A program made the position numbers and the translations under genes. From positions 1 to 64,000 of the forward strand of contig NZ_BBZJ01000042.1 of the NCBI RefSeq assembly GCF_001417775.1: a stretch of DNA of 64,000 nucleotides, read 5' to 3'. Position 1 is the stretch's first letter. Every line of letters starts with the position of its first letter. Of the stretch, positions 4,674 to 64,000 are shown piece by piece. Below the pieces are notes generated by a model, which worked only from the letters and a program-made list of their open reading frames with translations, ran no database searches and was not told where the DNA came from. This DNA is from Streptomyces sp. TP-A0356 (GTDB lineage Bacteria; Actinomycetota; Actinomycetes; Streptomycetales; Streptomycetaceae).

Positions 4674-5009
4674 CGTGTCTCTGGGTCCCTCCTGAAGGTA
4701 ACGGAGAGCGCGCGGCCTGGCACACACAACTGGCGGTGAGGCGCCAGATCTTAGTGCGGGCACGGTGATCACGCTTCTGCTCCGGGAAATGGAATGGAGC
4801 ACTCCGTCAGCATTGGCCAACGAAGCCCAGCGCTCAAGAAAGTGACCGAGATTCAACTCGGCACACCCTTGTTGAGTTCCGGGTGGGCGGCAATTGGTCA
4901 CCCGCTTGCCATGCCGTAGCATGCGATGCAACCGGTGGTGAGTTCCTCGCCAGGACTCACACCCCGACACCGGCCTGCGCACCAAGAGAGACCATTCCAT
5001 TCCGTGGTC

Positions 5010-5365: not shown

Positions 5366-6241
5366 ATGGCGCGGCACCCGCAACCGGTGAGGCAGGCAGC
5401 ACAGGTCCTCGCGAACACCGGGCTCGCGGCCTCGCTGAACCTGACTAAGGAAGCGAGAGCTGTCCTCGATGCCAGGATCCAGGATCTGGGCATGGGTGGC
5501 AGGTCCGCGATGGCAGACCTGTCGTCGGCGTACGAGCTGCCGATCTCCGTCCTGCTGGAAGTGAGCTCCGTTGCCCGGTACCGAGTACACGGACGCGGGG
5601 AGCGGCTGCTTCTCCGCAGGAGCACGGGGAACGTCATCTTCTTGATGGACGGCTGCGTTGCCGAGCGGACCTTCGACGATCAGGTTGTCCGTCTGTGGCG
5701 GGGCGGTGCGGTTTTCGGGGACGATGACGTCGTCCGCAGCGCGTTGCGGGCCGACGCGAAGCTGTACAGGAACTCGTACCTGACCTTCCTGTCAGAGACC
5801 CGGACCCTGCTGATCCCCAAGGACAAACTCCGCAGCTTGGCGATGGCTGAGCCCACAACGGCGCTCATGCTCGCGCGGATCGGGATGGAGAGGGCCCAAG
5901 TCGTCGAACGGCTCTACACCTCCAACCGGAAGTCGTCGGCGTCCCGCGTGGCCGCGCTCCTCGACTATCTCGCCGGCGAGAGCACCGTGATGCGCGCGCA
6001 GACGGTCGAGAACGAGGACCGGCAGCTCGTCGTGAAGCCGATGAGGAACGCGGTCGTGGACGGCCCGACGCAGACCGACATCTCGGAAGCGCTGACCTTG
6101 GGCAGGGCCACCGTCGAGAGAGCCATAACGCAGTTGCGCAAGGAGGGCGCCCTCCTCCACTTCCCGAAGGGCGCGCGCACCTACAGGGTGTACGAGATCG
6201 GGGACCGCGACCTCCTGCAGGAGATCGCACGGGGCGGCTGA
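5366..6241 (+). CDS. Crp/Fnr-family transcriptional regulator
   Basis: Encodes 291 residues. An N-terminal helical region precedes a cyclic-nucleotide-binding-like beta-roll (about 75-170), a long dimer helix (about 165-195) and a winged-helix DNA-binding domain (about 196-280) with a recognition-helix-like TQTDISEALTLGRATVERAI. The beta-roll lacks a clear phosphate-binding cassette of cAMP-responsive proteins, so the ligand is unknown. It follows the small membrane gene with zero spacing. It is longer than typical Crp (about 210 residues) because of the N-terminal extension of about 65 residues. Confidence 0.75.
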   Translation: MARHPQPVRQAAQVLANTGLAASLNLTKEARAVLDARIQDLGMGGRSAMADLSSAYELPISVLLEVSSVARYRVHGRGERLLLRRSTGNVIFLMDGCVAERTFDDQVVRLWRGGAVFGDDDVVRSALRADAKLYRNSYLTFLSETRTLLIPKDKLRSLAMAEPTTALMLARIGMERAQVVERLYTSNRKSSASRVAALLDYLAGESTVMRAQTVENEDRQLVVKPMRNAVVDGPTQTDISEALTLGRATVERAITQLRKEGALLHFPKGARTYRVYEIGDRDLLQEIARGG

Positions 6242-6827
6242 ACACCGGCCCCATCGCGGTGAACCGCGGACGCGCGGCACAGAGCACTGTGCCGAGCCTC
6301 CGCTCCTCCCCCACGTCACCCGCGCAGGAAGACGAAAGCGGCGACCGGAATCACGCCACCGACGCAGGCGGAACCACGAGCGGACGACCGCGAGCGGGCT
6401 GAGCGGGGCGTGGAGATCCTGCTGCCGCTGGTGCAGGAGTCACCGCGCTCCACTTCCCGTAAGGCCACGGACCCTCTCGCGGACACGCTCACGCGGACAG
6501 TCCCACCCACTGAGACCGGTAGACCGGTGGTCTACCGGTCCAGCAACGTCCTACGTCCGTACGGACTACAGGTTGCTGTACGGAAATACGCCGTACGAAT
6601 GGGAGTTCACACCCCCGCGAGGCAATCGAAGGACCGCCGCCTCGTCGGACATCGATGACGCTCACTGTTGCTTTCTCTGTCAAGTTCAGCGTGTCGAAGT
6701 GAATCGTGGCCCCCCGGGTGGCCGCTGAGTAACCCTGACTTGGTTGGCCTGGACGGTGAAGAGGACTCGAGGAGTGAGCCGGGCCGGACGGCCTGGCTCG
6801 TCGACCGTTTCCCGGAGGGTCGACGAA
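6242..6827. other. Intergenic region with palindrome cluster
   Basis: Between convergent genes. No gene is supported. The notable content is the cluster of inverted repeats at 6514-6597. Confidence 0.5.
6514..6597. repeat. Cluster of three adjacent inverted repeats
   Basis: First, 12-bp perfect arms GACCGGTAGACC at 6514-6525 and 6529-6540 with a 3-bp spacer. Second, the palindrome GTCCGTACGGAC nested inside outer arms AGCAAC (6542-6547) and GTTGCT (6572-6577). Third, GTACGG and CCGTAC about 7 bp apart near 6578-6597. Three repeats in 84 bp look like a protein-binding array or a structured RNA; no flanking gene start lies close by. Confidence 0.6.
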
Positions 6828-8514
6828 TTACGCGAGCTCAGAGCTACTGGGAAGTATCAGTGCCGAGTCCGTGTGGAGCGTGATGCGCACCGGTGTGAAG
6901 GTGGTGGCGTCCACCGGCGACTCACCGGTGCCCGGGTTGCGGGCGTAGCGTGGGTGGGCGCCTCCGCTGATCTGCCAGCGTATGCGGTGGCCGATGGGGA
7001 AGCGGTGCGCGGTGGAGCTCATCGGCACGGTGACCTGCGAGGGCTCCTGTTCGGTCGTCCGGAGTCGGACGAACCCGTCACAGATGTTGACGGAGCGGCC
7101 TTGTGCGTCCACGTCGCAAAGGCGGGTGAAGACATCGGCGTGTCCGGTGTCCGTGGAGATGCTCATCCGTGCGGAGACGGGACCCAGGATGTCCATGGGC
7201 TCGGTCAGTGGTGGGCCGGTGAATGTCAGGACGTCGTCTCGGGCCTCCAGGGTGGCGTTGTTCCGGGGGCCGGCGGCGCGGGAGAGCAGCGGACCGCCGA
7301 GGGAGGGGGTGGGGTCGGCCGGGTGGTAGCGGAACGCCGTCACGGGTGCGGAGTCTGCGGGGGCCAGCTGGGTGAGATGCCCGCCGGGGATGGGGTACCA
7401 CGAGGTGGCAACCGCGGCTGGCGGCCAGTCGTCGAGGTCCCGCCAGGTGTCTTCGCCGCCGATGTGCACACGCACCGCGGTGGGACGCAGGCCGGAGGGA
7501 TCGGCGTACAGGTGCGCGCGCAGCCACGCGAGGCTCTCGGTGAATACCTCGGGCCATCCTTGCTGCAGGGCCGAAGTATGGGTCCAGGGACCGACGAGCA
7601 GGGCGGTCTCACATCCGGCCTGGCGCAGCCGGTCGTACTGCTCGAAGGTCTGGTCGACTAGTGCGTCGTGCCATCCTGTGATCAGAGCCGTGGGCACGCG
7701 GAGCCGCTGCGTCGACTTCGCCAACGACGCGCCGTGCCAGTAGGCGTCCTTGGCGTCCGGGTGTGTCATCACGCCGTCCAGCCAAGGCAGTTCGCTGCCG
7801 AAGGCTGACACGTACGCCCCACGCAGGGGCCGCGCGGTGGTGACGTCGCGCAGGCGGCGCTGCAGGCGCAGCGTCGCCTTGAGGAACGGTGCCATGCCCT
7901 GGTGCTGGTAGTTCATGGCTGCACGATCCCTACGCCCTGTTCCACGCAGGCGGTGCGCTTCGCCTGGAGAACGCCCTCGCCGTGGGCGTGGGCCCTACTT
8001 GCACCACCATTGCCTTCAGTTCTGGCGGTGGGTCCAAAGCGAGGGCCCATTGCACGTAGCCCAGGTAACTGGGACCGACGGTCCCCAGTGTTCCGTTGAA
8101 CCAGGGTTGCTCGCGCAGCCAGGACACCGTGGCCTGGCCGTCGGCGGCCTCGTTGCGCCACAGATCGAACATGCCGCTCGAACCTCCGGTGCCGCGGCAG
8201 CTCTGCAGGACCACGTGGAAGCCCTGTTCGGCGAAGAGCAGGCCGTACTGGGGCGACCACGGCAGGCCTCGGCCATAGGGCGAGCGGACCAGGAGGGTGG
8301 GGAAGTCTCCCTGGGCGCGCGGGAAGTAGTGGTCAGTGATCAACGGGCTGCCGTCGGCGGCCGGCACCAACAGTCCCGGCTCCCATCCGGCCTCGTACCG
8401 TTTCGCCGGCAGACCTCGCCAGGTCGCCCTCATCATCCGGGAGGACAGCGGCGGTTTTCCGGCGGGTGGCACCCAGACTGGCCTGGCTACGGCGTCGGGC
8501 GTACGTGATGGCAT
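6828..8514 (-). pseudogene. CocE/NonD-family hydrolase disrupted by micro-inversion
   Basis: The N-terminal part starts at 8514 (ATG after GGAGGGGG) and contains the alpha/beta-hydrolase core: ITDHYFP, LLVRSPYGRG, then GTVGPSYLGYVQ with the nucleophile Ser. The C-terminal part (6828-7916) carries TALITGWHDALVDQTFEQYDRL, the acid/His region and the beta-jelly-roll domain of CocE-like X-Pro dipeptidyl-peptidase/cocaine-esterase hydrolases. The two parts are in different frames, with stops between. The 70 bp at 7921-7990 read sensibly only on the opposite strand, so a small inversion rather than a simple frameshift appears to have broken the gene. Substrates of this family are diverse acyl esters or peptides. 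Confidence 0.65.
7921..7990 (+). other. Putative 70-bp micro-inversion inside hydrolase gene
   Basis: The gene is on the minus strand, but here the plus strand reads HDPYALFHAGGALRLENALA (7922-7981). That would fit between the flanking minus-strand parts, which end in VQVGP and resume at MNYQHQGM. Flipping the segment restores most of the reading frame, with a 1-2 nt mismatch at one join, so the breakpoints are approximate. Confidence 0.55.
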
Positions 8515-55479: not shown

Positions 55480-57123
55480 TCAGTGACCGAGTGCGACCTG
55501 GACGATCTTGATGACGACCAGGATCATGGCGACGAGGAGGTAGGTGCGCAGGGCGCCCATGCCGGTCTTGCGGCCGGTGGACATCGTCGGCCGGGTCAGC
55601 GTCTCCAGTGCGGGCATGCGCCAGGTGTCCCTGCCGGTCCGGTCGATCGGGTCCTCCTTGGTGCCCGTACGGCGGCGCGTGAAGGCGTAGCCCGCGGCCA
55701 GTACCCCGACGATGCCGCAGGCGGCCATGATGTCGAGGATCGCGGTCGCGGAGATGTCCGGGAAGAGCACCGAGGCGGTCAGGATGATCGACAGGGCGAC
55801 CAGGATGCCGACCACCGCGGCGGTGAACGCGTTGGTCCTGGGGCCGTTGACCCACGGGCCGAGGACCTGCTTGTCGTTGCACAGCAGGAGCAGGAACACG
55901 CTGGCGGAGGGCAGCAGGACACCCGCGAGGGTCTGGACGCCCTCAGTGAGCAGGCCCAGCGGGGAGCCGGGGATGAGCACGATCGCTGCGGCAGTGGCGA
56001 CCAGGCCGGCGTAGACGGCGTAGAAGCCCTTGGCTCCCTTCACGCCGCGGTGGAGGGAGTGCTTGATGCCGAAGACGTCGCCGATGGCGTAAGCGGTGGA
56101 CAGGGACACGGCGAAGGCACCGATGATCGAGGCGTCCAGCAGCGCGATCGCGAACAGCACCCCAGCAAGCTTGCCCGCCTTGGCTTCGAGGCCGTGCGCG
56201 ATGTCGGCGGTGTCGGTGAACTGGCCGAAGCCGTGGGTGCCGGCGAATGCCGCGGCGGTGAAGCCCATCATGGCCGCGGCCCCGATGACGACCACGGCGA
56301 TGCCGATCCACAGGTCGGCCTTTTCGTACTTCATGAAGCGCGGGGTGATGCGCTTGTCGATCACGTAGGACTGCTGGAAGAACAGCTGCCAGGGGGCGAC
56401 CGTGGTGCCGACGATGCCGATGATCAGCAGCATGACGGTGGACAGCTGGCCGGTGCCGCCGGGCATGTTCGGGACGACGAAGTCGCGGGCCATCTGGGAG
56501 GCATGCGGGTGGACCATGAAGTAGATCGGCACCAGCAGCAGCGAGGCCGCGCACAGGATGATGGCGATCCGCTCGAAGCGGCGGAAGGAGCCGGTGAACG
56601 CCGAGGCGATGATGATGGCGGCGGCGAGTACGACGGAGGCGGCCTTGGGCAGGCCCAGGTAGCCGGTGGCCAGGGTGATGCCGATGAACTCGGTCACCAG
56701 GGTCAGCGCGTTGAGCAGGAACAGGTCGATGACGGAGAACGCGCCCCAGAACTTGCCGAACCGCTCCAGGATGAGGCGGGCGTGGCCGACGCCGGTGACG
56801 GCGCCCAGGCGCAGCACCATCTCCTGGTTGACGTACAGCACCGGGACCAGGAGCAGCAGGGTCCACAGCAGGTGGGTGCCGTAGTTCTGGCCGGCCTGGC
56901 CGTAGGTGGCGAAGGCGCCGGCGTCGTTGTCGCCGACCATGACGATCAGGCCGGGCCCGACGATGGCCAGGAGGGTCTTCAGCTTGGCCGACAGGCCGAT
57001 GCGGGGTGCGGTGTCGTCGAGCCGGATGGTGCCGAGGGCGCCCTGGATGTCGCCGATGTGGGCGTCGTCCAGGACGGCCGCGCGAGATGCCGCGGCGCTG
57101 GTGTCGATGGTCGTGTTGGTCAT
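55480..57123 (-). CDS. NRAMP-family transporter, likely Mg2+-type (NRMT-like)
   Basis: Encodes 547 residues from an ATG with GGGAGG upstream, with about eleven membrane helices. The TM1 motif is GDNDAGAFATY (65-69 DNDAG) instead of the DPGN of Mn/Fe NRAMPs; TM6 reads GTTVAPWQLFFQQS, where the usual MPH is APW. Loss of the TM6 methionine is the hallmark of NRAMP-related Mg2+ transporters. An M-box riboswitch lies upstream, independently pointing to Mg2+. The first 40 residues (AVLDDAHIGDIQGALGTIRL) are shared with the paralogue at 57763. Member of the plasma-membrane SLC11 family. Confidence 0.85.
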   Translation of the reverse strand: MTNTTIDTSAAASRAAVLDDAHIGDIQGALGTIRLDDTAPRIGLSAKLKTLLAIVGPGLIVMVGDNDAGAFATYGQAGQNYGTHLLWTLLLLVPVLYVNQEMVLRLGAVTGVGHARLILERFGKFWGAFSVIDLFLLNALTLVTEFIGITLATGYLGLPKAASVVLAAAIIIASAFTGSFRRFERIAIILCAASLLLVPIYFMVHPHASQMARDFVVPNMPGGTGQLSTVMLLIIGIVGTTVAPWQLFFQQSYVIDKRITPRFMKYEKADLWIGIAVVVIGAAAMMGFTAAAFAGTHGFGQFTDTADIAHGLEAKAGKLAGVLFAIALLDASIIGAFAVSLSTAYAIGDVFGIKHSLHRGVKGAKGFYAVYAGLVATAAAIVLIPGSPLGLLTEGVQTLAGVLLPSASVFLLLLCNDKQVLGPWVNGPRTNAFTAAVVGILVALSIILTASVLFPDISATAILDIMAACGIVGVLAAGYAFTRRRTGTKEDPIDRTGRDTWRMPALETLTRPTMSTGRKTGMGALRTYLLVAMILVVIKIVQVALGH

Positions 57124-57762: not shown

Positions 57763-59721
57763 TCAGCCGAGCTGGATCGCCTTGACCAGCAGCAACAGCG
57801 CGGCGATGACCAGGTAGCCGCGCAACAGGCTCATCCCGAGTTTCAGACCGGGCGACCAGACGACCGGTTCCAGCAGGGCGAGAGGCGGCATGCGCCAGCT
57901 CTCGCGTTCGGCGCGGGGGACTTCCGGCGCCCGGGGCGCAGCCGGTGGCCGGCGGGCGCGGACGATGCGCAGCCACGCTCCGGCGGCGAGAAGTCCGGCG
58001 ACCAGGACCCCGGCGAGCCACACGGCGACCTGGGTGGTGTTCAGCGACGGGAACAGGGTGGTCGCGACGAGGACCCCGGACAGCATCAGGAGCACCGAGA
58101 TGATGACCGCGGCCAGGATGTTGAGCCAGCGCGGATTGACCCAGGGGCCGAGAACCGCCCGGTCGTTGCACAGCAGGAGCAGGAAGACGCTGGCGGACGG
58201 CAGCAGCAGCCCGGCCAGGGCCTGCACGGCGGTGGTGATCAGGCCCAGAGGCGCGCGAGGGATGAGCACGATGGCGGCGGCGACCAGGACCATGCCGGCG
58301 TAGGTGGAGTAGAACGCCTTGGCCTCGCCGAAGCTGCGGTGCAGGGAGTGGCGCAGGTTGAACACGTCACCGAAGGCGTAGCTGGTAGCCAGGGTGACGG
58401 CCGCGGCGCCGATGATGGAGGCATCCAGCAGCACGACAGCGAACAGGGCTCCCAGGACGCGGCTGTGCGCGCCCAGCGCGTTCGCGATCCCCAACGCGTC
58501 GATGAAGTGCCCGGCCGCGCCGGTGCCGCGGACGGCGTAGTCGGCCACGATGACGATCGCGACGGCTCCGCCGACCACGACAAGAGAGCCGAGCACGGTG
58601 TCGGCGCGTTCATGCCCGATGAACCGTGGCGTGATGCGCTTGTCGATGATGTTGGACTGCTGGAAGAACAGCTGCCACGGAGCGACGGTCGTGCCGACGA
58701 TAGCGATGATCAGCAGGACCGCCTCGGAAGTGATGCCGCCCTGGACGCCGGGGACGACCAGGTGGTAGGCGGCCGAGCCATAGCGCGGGTGCGACAGCAG
58801 CGCCAACGGCACGAGCAGGAGGCTGACCCCGACGAAGGCGAGCATCGCGCGCTCCCAGCGGCGGAAGCTGCCGGTCGCGGTGATCGCGACCAGGGCGAGG
58901 GCTGCGACGGGTACGGCGATGTACTTGCTGACACCGAAATAGCTCAGGGCGAGCGAGACGCCGATGAACTCGGTGACGATCGTCAGAAAGTTCAGCACGA
59001 ACAGGTCACCGACGCTGAACCAGCCCCAGAACCTGCCGAACCGCTCGTTGATCAGCCGGGCGTGCCCGACACCGGTCACCGCGCCGAGCCGCACCACCAT
59101 CTCCTGGTTGACGATGAGGACCGGGATCAGCAGCAGGAGCACCCACAGCAGGCTGTAGCCGTAGTTCTGGCCCGCCTGCGCGTAGGTAGAGATCCCCCCG
59201 GCGTCGTTGTCACCGACCATCACGATCAGACCGGGACCGACGATGGCCAGGAAGGTCAGCAGCCGCCGCTTCAGGCTGCGGCCGGCGTCGGCCTCCTCCA
59301 GCCGGATGCGTCCCAGGGCGCCCTCGATGTCGCCCAGGTGGGCTTCGTCCAGCACTGCGGTCGGGCGGGCACGCGGACGTGACGCGGGTACCGGGGTGGG
59401 CGGCTGCTTGGCAGTACCGGCTGGAGTGGGCTCGGGCCGGCGAGTAGGGACAGCGGTGGGCTCGTGGGTGGCGCCGCCATGCTCGCCCGGCGTGCCTGGG
59501 TGCGGCGGTGCGGCGTGCGGGGGTGCGGGGGCTTCCGGCGTCCCGGAGCCGACGGGTCGGTTGGCCGGCGCCGGAGGGCGCCCACCGGGTGCGGGTGGGC
59601 CGTGCACGGGTGACTGTCCGCGGTCGACTGAAGAGGCGTGGTCCGGCGGAGACCCGTGGTCCGACGGCGAGCCGGGCCTAGGCGTCTGCGGCGAGCTCGG
59701 TTCGGGCCGGGGCTCGCTCAT
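57763..59721 (-). CDS. Second NRAMP-family transporter with long Pro-rich N-terminus
   Basis: Encodes 652 residues. Residues 1-120 are a disordered Pro/Gly/His-rich tail. From about 122 (AVLDEAHLGDIEGALGRIRL) it parallels the transporter at 55480. The metal-site motifs are again DNDAG (171-175) and TTVAPWQLFFQQS, so it is of the Mg2+-type by the same argument. About eleven membrane helices. The ATG overlaps the stop of the CBS-protein gene (ATGA), indicating a coupled pair. The start could be further in if the tail is not translated, but coupling favours this one. Confidence 0.85.
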   Translation of the reverse strand: MSEPRPEPSSPQTPRPGSPSDHGSPPDHASSVDRGQSPVHGPPAPGGRPPAPANRPVGSGTPEAPAPPHAAPPHPGTPGEHGGATHEPTAVPTRRPEPTPAGTAKQPPTPVPASRPRARPTAVLDEAHLGDIEGALGRIRLEEADAGRSLKRRLLTFLAIVGPGLIVMVGDNDAGGISTYAQAGQNYGYSLLWVLLLLIPVLIVNQEMVVRLGAVTGVGHARLINERFGRFWGWFSVGDLFVLNFLTIVTEFIGVSLALSYFGVSKYIAVPVAALALVAITATGSFRRWERAMLAFVGVSLLLVPLALLSHPRYGSAAYHLVVPGVQGGITSEAVLLIIAIVGTTVAPWQLFFQQSNIIDKRITPRFIGHERADTVLGSLVVVGGAVAIVIVADYAVRGTGAAGHFIDALGIANALGAHSRVLGALFAVVLLDASIIGAAAVTLATSYAFGDVFNLRHSLHRSFGEAKAFYSTYAGMVLVAAAIVLIPRAPLGLITTAVQALAGLLLPSASVFLLLLCNDRAVLGPWVNPRWLNILAAVIISVLLMLSGVLVATTLFPSLNTTQVAVWLAGVLVAGLLAAGAWLRIVRARRPPAAPRAPEVPRAERESWRMPPLALLEPVVWSPGLKLGMSLLRGYLVIAALLLLVKAIQLG

Positions 59722-61076
59722 GACGGGGGCCCCGCATCCTGCACCCCAGCCGTGGGGGTGCCGCTGGACCCCGCGGTGCGGTGCGCGTCAGGCGGCGGGG
59801 CCACCTCACGGCGCCGCCAGTCCTCCGGCAGCGTCGCCTCCAACACGTCGTCGACGGTAATGACGCCGAGCAGGACCCCGTCCTCGTCCACCACCGGCAG
59901 GGCGACCAGGTTGTAGTCGGTCATCAGCAGCACCACGTCCACCAGATCGGTATCCGGCCCGACCCGCACCGGGTCCGCCTCACTCACCTCCGCCAGCCGC
60001 GCCCCGGGATCCGTCTGCAGGAGGGCGACCAGGGAAGCGAAGGCGAGCAACCGCCCGTCCTCGTCCACGGCGTACACGCTGGTCAACGCCTCCGGCTGCA
60101 ACCGGCGTGCTCTCCTGACCGCCGCGACGGCCTCCCCCACCGGCGCGTCCGGGGGCAGCGCAAGGAAGTCCACGCCCATCAGACCGCCTGCGCTGTCGGG
60201 GTTGAACCCCATCAAGGTCAGCACCTTCGCGCGCTGACCTGCCGGCATCAGATCCAGCACCGGACGACGGCGGTCCTGCGGGAGATCGCCGATGGCGTCG
60301 GCCGCGTCGTCCGCACGCATCCGGGCCAGCACGCCGGCGATCTCCTCGTCCGTCCGGGCACCCAGCAGCCGGGACGCCCGGTCCTCCTCCAGTTCCTCGA
60401 AGACATCCGCCTCCAGCTCAGGGTCCTGCCCCACGTCGCCGAGGATCTCGCGCTCCTCGTCCCGAGAGGCGTCTTCCAGCAGGTCGGCGATCTCCGCCGG
60501 CCGCAGCCGCCGGATGCGGGCCGTGGGGCGACGGGCCAGCACACTGCGGCTGTGCCCGATCAGCGGCTCGAACGCCTTCCAGTCCCGGCACGCGTGTCCC
60601 GAGGGCCGCTCCCGGAAGATCCCCAGCAGCCGATGAGGCCGACGGGTGTCCACACACGACACCAGCCACTGCCCGTTACGGTAGCCAAGCTCCACGTCCG
60701 AGGCCCGCACCAGGCGCGCCTCGGCGACGTCGATCAGCCGGTGCCCCAGCACATCCGCGCGCAGCAGCACCTCGCCCCCACGCCGCTCGAACCGACGCAG
60801 ATCCAGCCGGGCACTCTCCAGCCTGACTAGTTCTCGGCCGTCGAGAGCCGCCACCTGCTCGATCGGCACGAACAGCTCACGACGGCCCACACCGATCACA
60901 AGCCCCGTCACCAGCGGATAGTCCACGCCACGCAGCCGGACGATCACATCGGCCAGACGGCCGAGCACCCGACCGCCCCGGTCCGCCACAGGGCGCCTGA
61001 CCAGTGACGACAGACGCACGACGGGCGTCTGCTCCTCGTGCGCCGGCGGCCGCGACGAAGACGGACTGACGGTCAT
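59718..61076 (-). CDS. PRC-barrel/MgtE-N/CBS-domain protein, Mg2+ sensor-like
   Basis: Encodes 452 residues without membrane segments. Order: PRC-barrel-like domain (about 20-105, VRLSSLVRRPVADRGGRVLG), a second beta domain, MgtE N-domain superhelix (about 190-290, LRPAEIADLLEDASRDEERE and ARMRADDAADAIGDLPQDRR, ending GLMGVDFLAL) and a CBS pair (about 300-430, VYAVDEDGRLLAFASLVALL and LVALPVVDEDGVLLGVITVD). In MgtE these domains sense Mg2+ and gate the pore; the pore is absent here. The gene overlaps the NRAMP gene that follows, suggesting it gates that transporter. Confidence 0.85.
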   Translation of the reverse strand: MTVSPSSSRPPAHEEQTPVVRLSSLVRRPVADRGGRVLGRLADVIVRLRGVDYPLVTGLVIGVGRRELFVPIEQVAALDGRELVRLESARLDLRRFERRGGEVLLRADVLGHRLIDVAEARLVRASDVELGYRNGQWLVSCVDTRRPHRLLGIFRERPSGHACRDWKAFEPLIGHSRSVLARRPTARIRRLRPAEIADLLEDASRDEEREILGDVGQDPELEADVFEELEEDRASRLLGARTDEEIAGVLARMRADDAADAIGDLPQDRRRPVLDLMPAGQRAKVLTLMGFNPDSAGGLMGVDFLALPPDAPVGEAVAAVRRARRLQPEALTSVYAVDEDGRLLAFASLVALLQTDPGARLAEVSEADPVRVGPDTDLVDVVLLMTDYNLVALPVVDEDGVLLGVITVDDVLEATLPEDWRRREVAPPPDAHRTAGSSGTPTAGVQDAGPPS

Positions 61077-61550: not shown

Positions 61551-61744
61551 GACCACGACTCACCCATGACTCACCGGACGCTCTGCTGGTGGCCGCAGCC
61601 GTGGAGACGCTCTCTCACCTCACCCATGGCCCACCGACAGGTTCCTAGGGTGACGACAGGGCGGGAGTCAGGTCAGGCCCACCCGACCGACACCCGTCGC
61701 CCGCCTGGCTACCGGCATCCCCGGCGGGCGGGCGGCGGTCGTGA

Positions 61745-62165
61745 TCAGGCAGAGATGCGCCGATCGGGGAGGCTCACCCGGATCTCCAGGCCGCCGCCCT
61801 TCCTGCACCGCGCATCGACCGAGCCGCGGTGGGCCTCCGCCACGGCCTTGACCACGGACAGGCCCAGTCCGCTGCCTCGTGGCCCGCCCGAGCGGGGTGT
61901 GCCCCGGCGGAACGGCTTGAACAGGTCCGCCGTCGTGGCGTCGTCGAGTACCGGACCGGTGTTGGAGACGATGAGCTGACTGCGGCCGTCGGCACGATCG
62001 TGGCGGCTTGCGATGAACAGCTCTCCGTGCGGCACGTTGTGGCGGACGGCGTTGGTGACGACATTGCTCACCAGTTGGGAGAGCAGCGGGACGTCGCCCT
62101 CCACGGGTGCGGGACTCAGTTCCGTGCGGACTTGGCGCTTGCCTCCTGCGGCATTGCCGGAGCGG
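61745..62165 (-). pseudogene. C-terminal fragment of sensor histidine kinase
   Basis: Contains the ATPase lobe only: LLSQLVSNVVTNAVRHNVP (N-box), LIVSNTGPVLDD (G1), LFKPFRRG and GSGLGLSVVKAVAEAHRGSV (G2), then LEIRVSLP to the stop. The HAMP, dimerisation domain and phospho-acceptor His are missing. No response-regulator gene is beside it. Confidence 0.7.
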
Positions 62166-62530
62166 CCGGGTTCTCGGCATGGTCCCAGATGCACGGAGCC
62201 GCTGCCATCGACCGGGCGCCGGTGCGCACCTCCGGGCTCGTTGACCGCGTGACCTCCCACCCCAAGGGCGGCTCAGCGGTCCACGTTTCCTACACCGTGG
62301 ACGACCGCCAGTTCGCGTCGGAAAGCCTGGACCTGCACGAGGTGCCGAAGGTGCGGGTAGGCGCACGTCTATGCCTGGAGGCCGCGGCGACCTCACCGGC
62401 TGCGGTGCGGCTGTGCGGACAGACCTACCCCGGCGGCCAAATGCTGGACACGGACGTCCTCGTCGGCGTTGCGGGAACGGCAGGATTGGCAATCGCGGTG
62501 GGCCGCTTTGGCGTAGCACAACGGGAACAC
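62160..62530 (+). pseudogene. Fragment of a membrane protein
   Basis: The plus strand reads VDRVTSHPKGGSAVHVSYTV, DDRQFASESLDLHEVPKVRV, GARLCLEAAATSPAAVRLCG and a following hydrophobic stretch (VLVGVAGTAGLAIAVG). It lacks a start and stop of its own and abuts fragments on the other strand on both sides. Family not recognised. Confidence 0.4.
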
Positions 62531-62544
62531 AAGACAGCCGCGCT

Positions 62545-62680
62545 CGCCGCTCGGCTGGATGCTGGTGCAGCCGAGACGCCAATCGTAGGCGTTCAGCGAG
62601 AGACGGGAGGGCTCGAAGGGATCGATGGTGATCTCGCCCGCCGCGACAGCGGCGGCGATGGCGGGTCCGGTCAGGATCAC
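62545..62680 (-). pseudogene. N-terminal fragment of dCTP-deaminase-like gene
   Basis: From GTG 62680 the frame reads VILTGPAIAAAVAAGEITID and PFEPSRLSLNAYDWRLG, closely following the conserved start of dCTP deaminases (MILTG..I...I..G.I.I.PF....L...SYD.RLG). The catalytic region is missing. A phrase TMFFVSTGDIDLYCGKYQAA just upstream, out of frame, may be another remnant. Confidence 0.55.
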
Positions 62681-62905
62681 GAGGCCACCGCCCGGACGGT
62701 GGCGGCGTCCCGCCAGTAGCGGACTCCTGCGGCCCCACGGCGGCCTGGTACTTGCCGCAGTAGAGGTCGATGTCGCCGGTGGAGACGAAGAACATGGTTC
62801 GAGGGCTTGCGGTCGGTCGGGCCTGCGGTGTGCTGGTGGGCATGGACGGGCGGTAGTCGCCCCCGAGTGATCCACCGGACGAGGTATCGGAGCTAATCCG
62901 GCCGG

Positions 62906-64000
62906 TCATGTCCCCGGCAGGATTGGCAGCACAGCCTCCACGGCGTCCTGGGAGGGAGGGCCGGCCGGCCACCACTGGCCGGACTGCTTGCGGAACGGGT
63001 ACCAGTGACCGTCCGGTCCGTACCGCAGCTCGATGTCGTGACCGACCAATTGGAGGCGGCCGCCGGTGCGGCGCAGCAGGGGAGGGTCGGGCAGGCCGGG
63101 AAGCGGTCGGGTGAGGAGTTGTTCGCGTGCCGCGGTCTCCGCGGCACGCGGTGGCACCTGGCCTCCGTCGAGGACGGCCAGTGCGGGTTGGCCCCCGTGC
63201 TTCCACGCCGCGCTTTCCCGCGCGAGCCGTGCACGCGCCTGGTCTGAACTGTTCAGCAGGCGGCCGACGACGCGAGGATCGCCGTCCGCTCGTGCCGCGC
63301 GCCGGACGGTGTCCAGCCAGGGGTCGGTGTCGAGCCAGAGCCGGGCGGCGGGGGCTCCTCCGGTGGCGACCGCGTGGCTGTAGGCGTCGGTGGCACGGTG
63401 GGCGGCGTCGTCGACCAGCGTGCGCAGCCGGTCGGGGGCCACAAGGCTGTCCTCGTGGCCCGGATCCGGGAACGGCCCGACAGTGACGGGCCCGGTCTCC
63501 GGGGCGGGAAGCTCCGGCAGGGGAGGCAGTCCGCCTTCCTGCCTGGCCCGCGCGAACGCCTCGCCAGCCGGGACTGCGCGAGCCGCGCCCGCCCTGGTCA
63601 GTTCCGCTTCTTCAGCGGCCTGTTCGGCAGCGGCGGCCTCGCGTTCGGCGCACCGGAGCGCTGCTTCCTCCCGCACGAAGTCCAAGTGGTGGCCGCGGAG
63701 CAGCAGGAGGGCGTCGGGGCGGGCGTCGATGGCCCGCGCGTACTGGTAGGAGACCGCTGCCGCGTGTTTGCAGGGGAAGCCCCAGTCAGGGCAGGTGCAC
63801 TCGTAGTCGGTGAGGCCGGGCCTGGGTACCAGGGCGATGTGTTCGGAGACGGCGATGCGCGCGGTTGCCTCGCCGAGCTCCCCGCGGGACAGTTCGGCGG
63901 CGGCCTCGACGTCGTCCGTCCATGCCTCGAGCAGCCGGTCCACCTCCGCCTCGAGCAGTTCGGGAACGCGGAGTGTGACCCTGTACGGGCGGCGGCCACT
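62906..64000 (-). CDS. SWIM zinc-finger domain protein (partial, 5' end outside window)
   Basis: The frame is open to the right edge; a GTG at 63943 is internal, as coding sequence (VTLRVPELLEAEVDRLLEAW) precedes it. The SWIM motif YECTCPDWGFPCKHAAAVSY gives CxC...CxH zinc ligands. The rest is a helical Ala/Glu/Arg-rich region and a C-terminal domain ending WYPFRKQSGQWWPAGP. SWIM proteins of this type often sit beside SNF2-type helicases; the neighbour lies outside the window. Confidence 0.75.
   Translation of the reverse strand, partial: SGRRPYRVTLRVPELLEAEVDRLLEAWTDDVEAAAELSRGELGEATARIAVSEHIALVPRPGLTDYECTCPDWGFPCKHAAAVSYQYARAIDARPDALLLLRGHHLDFVREEAALRCAEREAAAAEQAAEEAELTRAGAARAVPAGEAFARARQEGGLPPLPELPAPETGPVTVGPFPDPGHEDSLVAPDRLRTLVDDAAHRATDAYSHAVATGGAPAARLWLDTDPWLDTVRRAARADGDPRVVGRLLNSSDQARARLARESAAWKHGGQPALAVLDGGQVPPRAAETAAREQLLTRPLPGLPDPPLLRRTGGRLQLVGHDIELRYGPDGHWYPFRKQSGQWWPAGPPSQDAVEAVLPILPGT

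Follow-up and report, generated by a model that had tools for sequence, protein, structure and literature searches.

A soluble MgtE-type sensor encoded with an NRMT transporter in Streptomyces sp. TP-A0356 is a candidate Mg2+-responsive regulatory subunit

The DNA analyzed here (the window, 64,000 nucleotides) comprises positions 1 to 64,000 of the forward strand of contig NZ_BBZJ01000042.1 from Streptomyces sp. TP-A0356 (assembly GCF_001417775.1). It carries, directly ahead of a gene for an Nramp-family transporter of the NRMT type (P0002), a gene for a soluble protein that combines a PRC-barrel domain with the MgtE_N domain and CBS pair of MgtE channels. This protein, referred to as the sensor, is probably a dedicated Mg2+-responsive regulatory subunit, of inhibitory type, of the NRMT encoded next to it, and possibly also of P0003, a second NRMT-like protein of the window (Table 1). 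In this role, the sensor would act as a brake on NRMT-mediated Mg2+ uptake when Mg2+ is high. A need for a brake of this kind is plausible given that EleNRMT of Eggerthella lenta, which transports Mg2+ and Mn2+, does so without proton coupling (PMC8806188; this paper, PMC4072509, PMC5529423, and PMC5882242 are cited throughout for passages of their text). The question is then how cells stop uptake by such importers, and if the proposal is true, an MgtE sensor working apart from its channel would be the answer; the gating ring of a channel would in that case be reused on carriers of another fold.

All three domains of the sensor passed the Pfam cut-offs (E values of 6e-6 for PRC, 2e-20 for MgtE_N, and 1e-15 for CBS at amino acids 363 to 414). 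The AlphaFold2 model (pLDDT 87.5, pTM 0.80; 52-row alignment) consists of two small N-terminal beta domains, the second lying after the PRC barrel at about amino acids 102 to 171, followed by the MgtE_N helices and the CBS pair; a succession of long membrane helices is absent. Foldseek returned MgtE cytosolic domains as the best PDB matches of the MgtE_N-CBS part (2yvy, TM-score of 0.84 by target length and root-mean-square deviation of 1.9). The cytosolic MgtE_N domain and CBS pair of an MgtE channel are present, and the PF01769 pore with its D432 is missing. A true MgtE with an overlooked pore was ruled out, since Pfam left PF01769 unmatched and membrane helices were absent from the AlphaFold2 model; the window sensor is not an MgtE channel. 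These results, together with the ATGA overlap of the two genes, bear out what a preliminary description of the window had stated about the protein, i.e., PRC, MgtE_N, and CBS domains without membrane helices and a 4-bp overlap with the Nramp gene. Its further claim of an MgtE sensor module detached from its pore is well supported by the MgtE cytosolic fold, the retention of most Mg2+ ligands, and the existence of relatives with decayed pores. The same -4 overlap of sensor and transporter genes was found at the related loci L011, L012, L014, and L015.

The ligands were compared with those of the Thermus thermophilus channel TtMgtE (2yvy/2zy9), which shares the N and CBS fold with the sensor and whose Mg2+ sites, as probed by mutants, are Mg4 (D91/D247), Mg5 (D226/D250), Mg6 (D95), and Mg7 (E59), plus Mg2 (E258) and Mg3 (D259) (PMC5882242). 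D91, D95, and D247 are conserved in the window sensor, E59 is present as Asp and D250 as Glu; unlike TtMgtE, the window sensor lacks the pore and the ATP-site residues, has Asn at D226 and R421/R422 in place of the plug-helix acidic residues, and has an added PRC region. Among 45 soluble sensors not encoded beside DUF1003 genes (43 with an Nramp gene in the locus; L016 and L017 without), D247 was kept in 45, D91 in 42, and D95 in 43 (Glu in the other 2), E59 was represented by Asp in 44, and position 250 was acidic in 41. Compared with 40 other acidic positions, the six that bind Mg2+ in the cytosolic part are more often kept acidic (Mann-Whitney test, P = 0.004), and four of the six rank among the most conserved acidic columns. 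Judging from these residues, the Mg2+-dependent closing of the N domain on the CBS pair can be retained in the soluble sensors. The plug helix behaves differently: E258 and D259 were kept in 26 of 26 relatives with a pseudo-pore (see below) and in 6 of 6 canonical MgtEs, whereas positions 258 and 259 are Arg or Lys in 40 and 36 of the 45 soluble sensors. Since the plug helix is gone and Arg/Lys stand where its acidic ligands were, any contact with NRMT or another membrane partner must differ from that in MgtE.

The partner was classified by its ion site, which reads DxxG and TxxA/T in NRMTs versus DxxN and A/CxxM in NRAMPs (PMC8806188). P0002 has DAGG in helix 1 and TTVA in helix 6, both of NRMT type; EleNRMT (7qia) has the DxxG/TxxA site as well. 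In helix 6b of both P0002 and P0003, APWQ replaces MPH, so that the histidines of H+-coupled NRAMPs are gone; EleNRMT has Trp and Asn at those positions (PMC8806188). P0002 matched EleNRMT with 198 bits versus at most 67 bits for 20 other solved Nramp sequences matched. By signature and similarity, the neighbor of the sensor is an NRMT, i.e., a member of the Mg2+ branch of the Nramp family. A generic Mn2+/Fe2+ NRAMP was ruled out as the partner by the NRMT signature and by the bit scores against solved structures. The NRAMP partner named in the preliminary description is thus right as to family (Pfam) but is not a generic NRAMP. Because the partner falls in a branch with proven Mg2+ transporters, sensor and transporter agree in substrate. 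At locus L042, the gene for a close relative of EleNRMT (826 bits to 7qia) is separated by 2 bp from a preceding PRC-MgtE_N-CBS gene, the product of which has one C-terminal membrane helix, unlike the window sensor, which has none; an NRMT-sensor complex from such a pair is a direct structural target. P0002 differs from EleNRMT at both ends: its long N-terminal tail includes a conserved peptide, and its C-terminal extension ends in a hydrophobic stretch. The motif VLDxAHxGDI of the peptide region AVLDEAHLGDIEGALGRIRLEE was found in 23 of 27 Nramp rows of the GDNDA type versus 0 of 62 other NRMT-type rows, and a docking segment is a possible role for this peptide.

P0003 has DAGA/TTVA; its helix 6 fits the NRMT type, and the fourth residue of helix 1, Ala instead of Gly, is one off the motif. 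Mg2+ as its substrate is supported by the M-box upstream of the gene, a full-length match to the Mg2+ riboswitch model with 133.4 bits versus a gathering score of 44 (E value of 1.6e-30). This M-box, the only one in the window, lies about 320 nt ahead of P0003, between the two NRMT-type genes, and is downstream of the sensor-NRMT pair, not upstream of that operon. Transporters of the P0003 type are directly paired with a sensor at L018, L019, and L025, which is why P0002 and P0003 may both be served by the window sensor.

The preliminary description would have been refuted by a lack of conserved co-occurrence of the two genes together with a lack of interaction of their products; we surveyed co-occurrence in 296 genomes of Actinomycetota. 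All adjacent pairs noticed among the matches listed were fetched, plus most unpaired Nramp rows of middle score; about 16 unpaired mid-score and about 30 high-score Nramp rows were left unfetched, so the resulting counts are enriched for pairs. In this sample, the pair proved conserved: 61 of 69 NRMT-type loci (the class that remained after other signatures were assigned, including L056, which lacks the helix-1 Asp) have a nearby sensor gene, 60 on the same strand and 1 divergent, and 8 have none. Sensor first is the order in 57 of the 60 same-strand pairs, and the start-to-stop gap does not exceed 61 nt in 51 of these pairs (up to 550 nt in the rest); start codons were taken as the first ATG, GTG, or TTG and are partly overcalled, which yields some large negative gaps. 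Loci with NRMT-first order, among all those analyzed, are L018 to L021, L024, L025, L074, L075, L111, and L217. No sensor was found beside classical MntH (DPGN) genes (0 of 11 loci), beside Nramp genes of the D-P-x-G/TxxS type (0 of 8) or the GPGT type (0 of 8), or at one incomplete locus. Sensor-like neighbors at two of four loci of the DPAG/TxxA type (L095 and L096) are proteins of 274 to 304 amino acids, encoded ahead of the Nramp gene, in which only a remnant of MgtE_N is left and a CBS domain is missing. In all eight genomes where the NRMT is unpaired, an MgtE-type relative of about 600 amino acids, with the long N-terminal region and a decayed pore, is encoded elsewhere. In Chloroflexota, the phylum of a Brevefilum genome, 13 of 19 NRMT-type loci were paired (20 loci picked by hand, mostly in the 250- to 330-bit range; the helix-1 match of L220 is doubtful), versus 0 of 30 DPGN loci within 1.5-kb flanks. 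The first set of relatives, found through the sensor itself, is biased toward pairs. At L008, the sensor is the frame at 5533 to 7185, and a 141-amino-acid fragment at the same locus is not. The window genome is the only one of 12 same-genus survey genomes with more than one MgtE_N protein among the matches listed, and on this ground the NRMT pairs look accessory in the genus.

M-box elements link some of the pairs to Mg2+ control. They occurred in 12 of 51 loci scanned (45 of them paired): 7 ahead of operons with the sensor first, 4 ahead of operons with the NRMT first (L018, L019, L025, and L074), and 1 before an NRMT gene on the opposite strand (L015). Among the 45 paired loci scanned outside the window, 11 thus have the M-box upstream of the leading gene of the pair, and at L078 it overlies the called sensor start. 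None was found at L008 to L010. Seven of eight genomes of named relatives that were searched have an M-box somewhere.

Sensor and transporter phylogenies agree. In the sensor tree (123 rows, MgtE_N-CBS region), sensors paired with DUF1003 proteins form one clade (21 rows, support of 100) and those with one membrane helix another (10 rows, support of 98), and class labels require 9 changes versus 69 when shuffled. Soluble NRMT-type sensors are not a single clade (3 changes), as a long branch separates those of L074, L075, and L111 from the others. Over 78 pairs, distances in the sensor and NRMT trees correlate with an r of 0.88 (0 of 2,000 permutations as high), and 43 of 75 splits are held in common (shuffled mean of 0.23, maximum of 4). 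The two sensor/NRMT pairs of the window genome fall in matching clades; the sensor and the NRMT of the second pair, on contig C16, group with the same four partners with a support of 100 in both trees. Classical MntH of the same genome, on contig C28, has no sensor gene. As a separate observation, the pairs of L074, L075, and L111 are in reversed order, and their sensors group away from the other soluble ones, perhaps reflecting a separate pore loss.

Some relatives of the sensor have a decayed pore. Twenty-five NRMT neighbors in the survey are proteins of about 600 to 670 amino acids with a long N-terminal region, MgtE_N, CBS, and four to six hydrophobic helices. The Pfam pore domain of MgtE scored 26 bits in L051, 14 in L043, and 33 in the unlinked L149 and was unmatched in L054 and L061, versus 82 and 124 bits in two canonical MgtEs. 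The pore Asp aligned to D432 is present in 0 of 39 membrane-helix relatives with the long N-terminal region (25 beside NRMT genes, the rest unlinked) versus 8 of 8 canonical MgtEs, and the same 39 have also lost the GGNxGxQ-like motif. Among 10 survey proteins checked with Pfam, PRC was detected in L043, L054, L061, L033, and L096, scored below the cut-off in L051, and was missed in L149; in other survey rows, the PRC assignment rests on the N-terminal region shared in alignments. The AlphaFold2 model of the L053 pseudo-pore protein (pLDDT 80.6, pTM 0.40) aligned to full-length MgtE chains over 392 to 410 residues with a root-mean-square deviation of 11 to 12, which we take only as consistent with MgtE descent. 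Sensors with one membrane helix nest inside the pseudo-pore group. The series suggests that the sensor descends from MgtE-type channels by stepwise loss of the pore, in a direction that we infer from these proteins; no intermediate leading to the fully soluble sensor clade was found among the survey relatives.

Shin et al. reported in 2014 that most NrmT genes adjoin a gene for the N-terminal cytoplasmic domain of MgtE; as its role they suggested feedback regulation or, alternatively, action as a metal chaperone (PMC4072509). The window pair belongs to this kind, i.e., a separate gene for the MgtE cytoplasmic domain beside an Nramp-related transporter, sometimes under M-box control, and the sensor reading is further supported here. 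The preliminary description had called the arrangement unusual; arrangement and feedback idea have both been in print since that report. The window departs from it in that its M-box does not precede the sensor gene but separates two NRMT-type genes. The PRC region, the ligand retention, the pore decay, and the DUF1003 clade go beyond the passages of PMC4072509. The sensor gene is unmentioned in the MgtE passages of PMC8806188, and the word MgtE is absent from PMC9606685. Full-text searches, with most subscription journals outside their coverage, returned no later paper on this sensor gene and none for PRC-barrel with MgtE or for PRC-barrel with CBS domain and magnesium; a history of pore loss is likewise not found in the literature searched.

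Several observations weigh against an inhibitory Mg2+-responsive subunit. The D226 position is acidic in only 1 of the 45 soluble sensors, and the ATP-site residues of MgtE (PMC5529423) are largely replaced. In Bacillus subtilis, Mg2+ rescue was no better when the Acidobacterium capsulatum MgtE-like gene was coexpressed, and the A. capsulatum transporter is likely a Mn2+ importer (PMC4072509); a growth-rescue assay would miss a brake acting at high Mg2+. The EleNRMT and Clostridium acetobutylicum transporters function without a sensor, in liposomes or B. subtilis (PMC8806188, PMC4072509), so the sensor is dispensable for transport. No sensor is nearby at 8 survey loci and 6 of the 19 Chloroflexota loci (two of these cut at a contig end), and for L016 and L017, two short contigs that encode close relatives of the window sensor, the fetched DNA gave no Nramp match. 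No sensor-NRMT fusion was found among the open reading frames scanned in survey and Chloroflexota loci, and no interaction, Mg2+ binding, or gating by the sensor in the literature searched. Finally, the trees were compared without a species-tree control, and shared ancestry accounts for part of their agreement.

A positive factor for NRMT, i.e., a partner in assembly, stability, or delivery (chaperone) rather than a brake, appears unlikely. The chaperone function named by Shin et al. (PMC4072509), the loss of the D226 ligand, the leading position of the sensor gene, often so close to the NRMT gene or overlapping it that translational coupling is suggested, and the membrane location that the one-helix and pseudo-pore forms would have next to the transporter all fit such a partner, but the transporters function without it in B. 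subtilis and liposomes, and Mg2+ sensing is indicated both by the closing-site ligands, most of which are retained, and by the M-box that controls some pairs. Less probable again is a sensor that adjusts NRMT to a signal other than Mg2+, such as Mn2+, a nucleotide bound by the CBS pair, or a ligand of the PRC domain. The high conservation of four ligand positions out of the six in the cytosolic part, the sensing of Mg2+ by the M-box, and the Mg2+-type site of the window transporter speak against this reading, which draws on the replaced ATP-site residues, perhaps indicating a different ligand, and on A. capsulatum NrmT, which fully rescued Mn2+ transport and rescued Mg2+ transport only at low millimolar Mg2+ (PMC4072509). 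Mere coregulation of a soluble Mg2+ buffer, or of a sensor acting elsewhere, that shares the operon without a physical link is very improbable: the missing fusion, the variable gene order, the unlinked pairs, and the Nramp-less L016 and L017 would suit it, but the overlap is conserved, the two pairs of one genome fall in matching clades, and sensor clades follow transporter type.

A second type of neighbor was found in the window genome, which encodes three PRC-MgtE_N-CBS proteins (in the window and on contigs C16 and C19). The C16 sensor gene lies directly before another NRMT-like gene with an imperfect signature (DAAG/TTVS). The C19 sensor gene overlaps a gene for a DUF1003 protein with two membrane helices (L010, 1804-2382 and 2372-4360), near Mrp-like and CorA-like genes as read from translations. 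Around MgtE_N genes without an Nramp gene seen nearby, 16 of 20 loci (L131 to L146) adjoin DUF1003 genes; the other four are L147, which does have an NRMT, two canonical MgtEs, and one pseudo-pore form. Four more loci (L167 to L170) bring the DUF1003 pairings to 20 besides C19. An 884-amino-acid DUF1003 frame at L145 was rejected as a sensor fusion, its MgtE_N frame being a separate open reading frame of 430 amino acids. DUF1003-paired sensors (C19 and L131 to L146) have the layout of the window sensor and keep D91, D95, and D247 in 17 of 17 cases, with Arg at position 258 in 17 of 17 and mostly Glu at position 259 (12 of 17); they differ from the window sensor in partner and in forming the separate clade described above. 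A similar neighborhood presumably surrounds Rv1232c of Mycobacterium tuberculosis. For DUF1003, a domain without an assigned function, the pairing hints at a possible role in Mg2+ homeostasis. It is conceivable, although we hold this tentatively, that MgtE turned stepwise into a portable Mg2+-sensing subunit, losing pore residues and then helices while its plug contacts changed from acidic to basic, and that this subunit now controls membrane proteins from at least two unrelated families, NRMT (LeuT fold) and DUF1003, in the same cell.

Table 1. Positions of the sensor, transporter, and riboswitch features in the window
Feature	Position	Strand	Basis or remark
Sensor gene (PRC - MgtE_N - CBS pair)	59718..61076	minus	452-amino-acid open reading frame, ATG start
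PRC-barrel domain, amino acids 20-76	60849..61019	minus	Pfam and AlphaFold2
MgtE_N domain, amino acids 191-294	60195..60506	minus	Pfam; D224, D256, D260 align to TtMgtE E59, D91, D95
CBS pair, about amino acids 300-415	59832..60179	minus	Pfam and AlphaFold2; D410 aligns to TtMgtE D247, E413 to D250, N389 to D226
Basic triplet R421-R423	59808..59816	minus	Alignment; MgtE has acidic plug-helix ligands E258/D259 there
ATGA stop/start overlap of sensor and transporter genes	59718..59721	minus	Open reading frame coordinates
NRMT-type Nramp gene P0002, 652 amino acids	57763..59721	minus	Pfam Nramp core 58132-59193
Helix 1 ion-site motif D173-A-G-G176 of P0002 (DxxG, NRMT type)	59194..59205	minus	Motif definition in PMC8806188
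Helix 6 ion-site motif T344-T-V-A347 of P0002 (TxxA, NRMT type), then P-W-Q	58681..58692	minus	Motif match
Conserved N-terminal peptide AVLDEAHLGDIEGALGRIRLEE of P0002, amino acids 122-143	59293..59358	minus	Alignment of Nramp rows
M-box Mg2+ riboswitch RF00380	57440..57613	minus	Covariance-model match, upstream of the second NRMT-like gene
Second NRMT-like gene P0003, 547 amino acids from ATG, ion site DAGA/TTVA	55480..57123	minus	Open reading frame and Pfam, behind the M-box

A scan for sigma-70-type promoters gave 0 matches, and a terminator scan gave five terminator-like sites, none of which was used in the interpretation. At L040, a c-di-GMP-II riboswitch match barely above the gathering score follows the NRMT gene (4709-4774, plus strand). 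Beyond the sensor gene in the window, overlapping-frame fragments at 61668-62875 resemble the ATPase end of a histidine kinase and a dCTP-deaminase-like stretch and look, by eye only, like gene remnants. The minus-strand open reading frame at 62906-64000 contains the motif CxCPDWGFPCKH, which, likewise by eye only, resembles a SWIM zinc finger.

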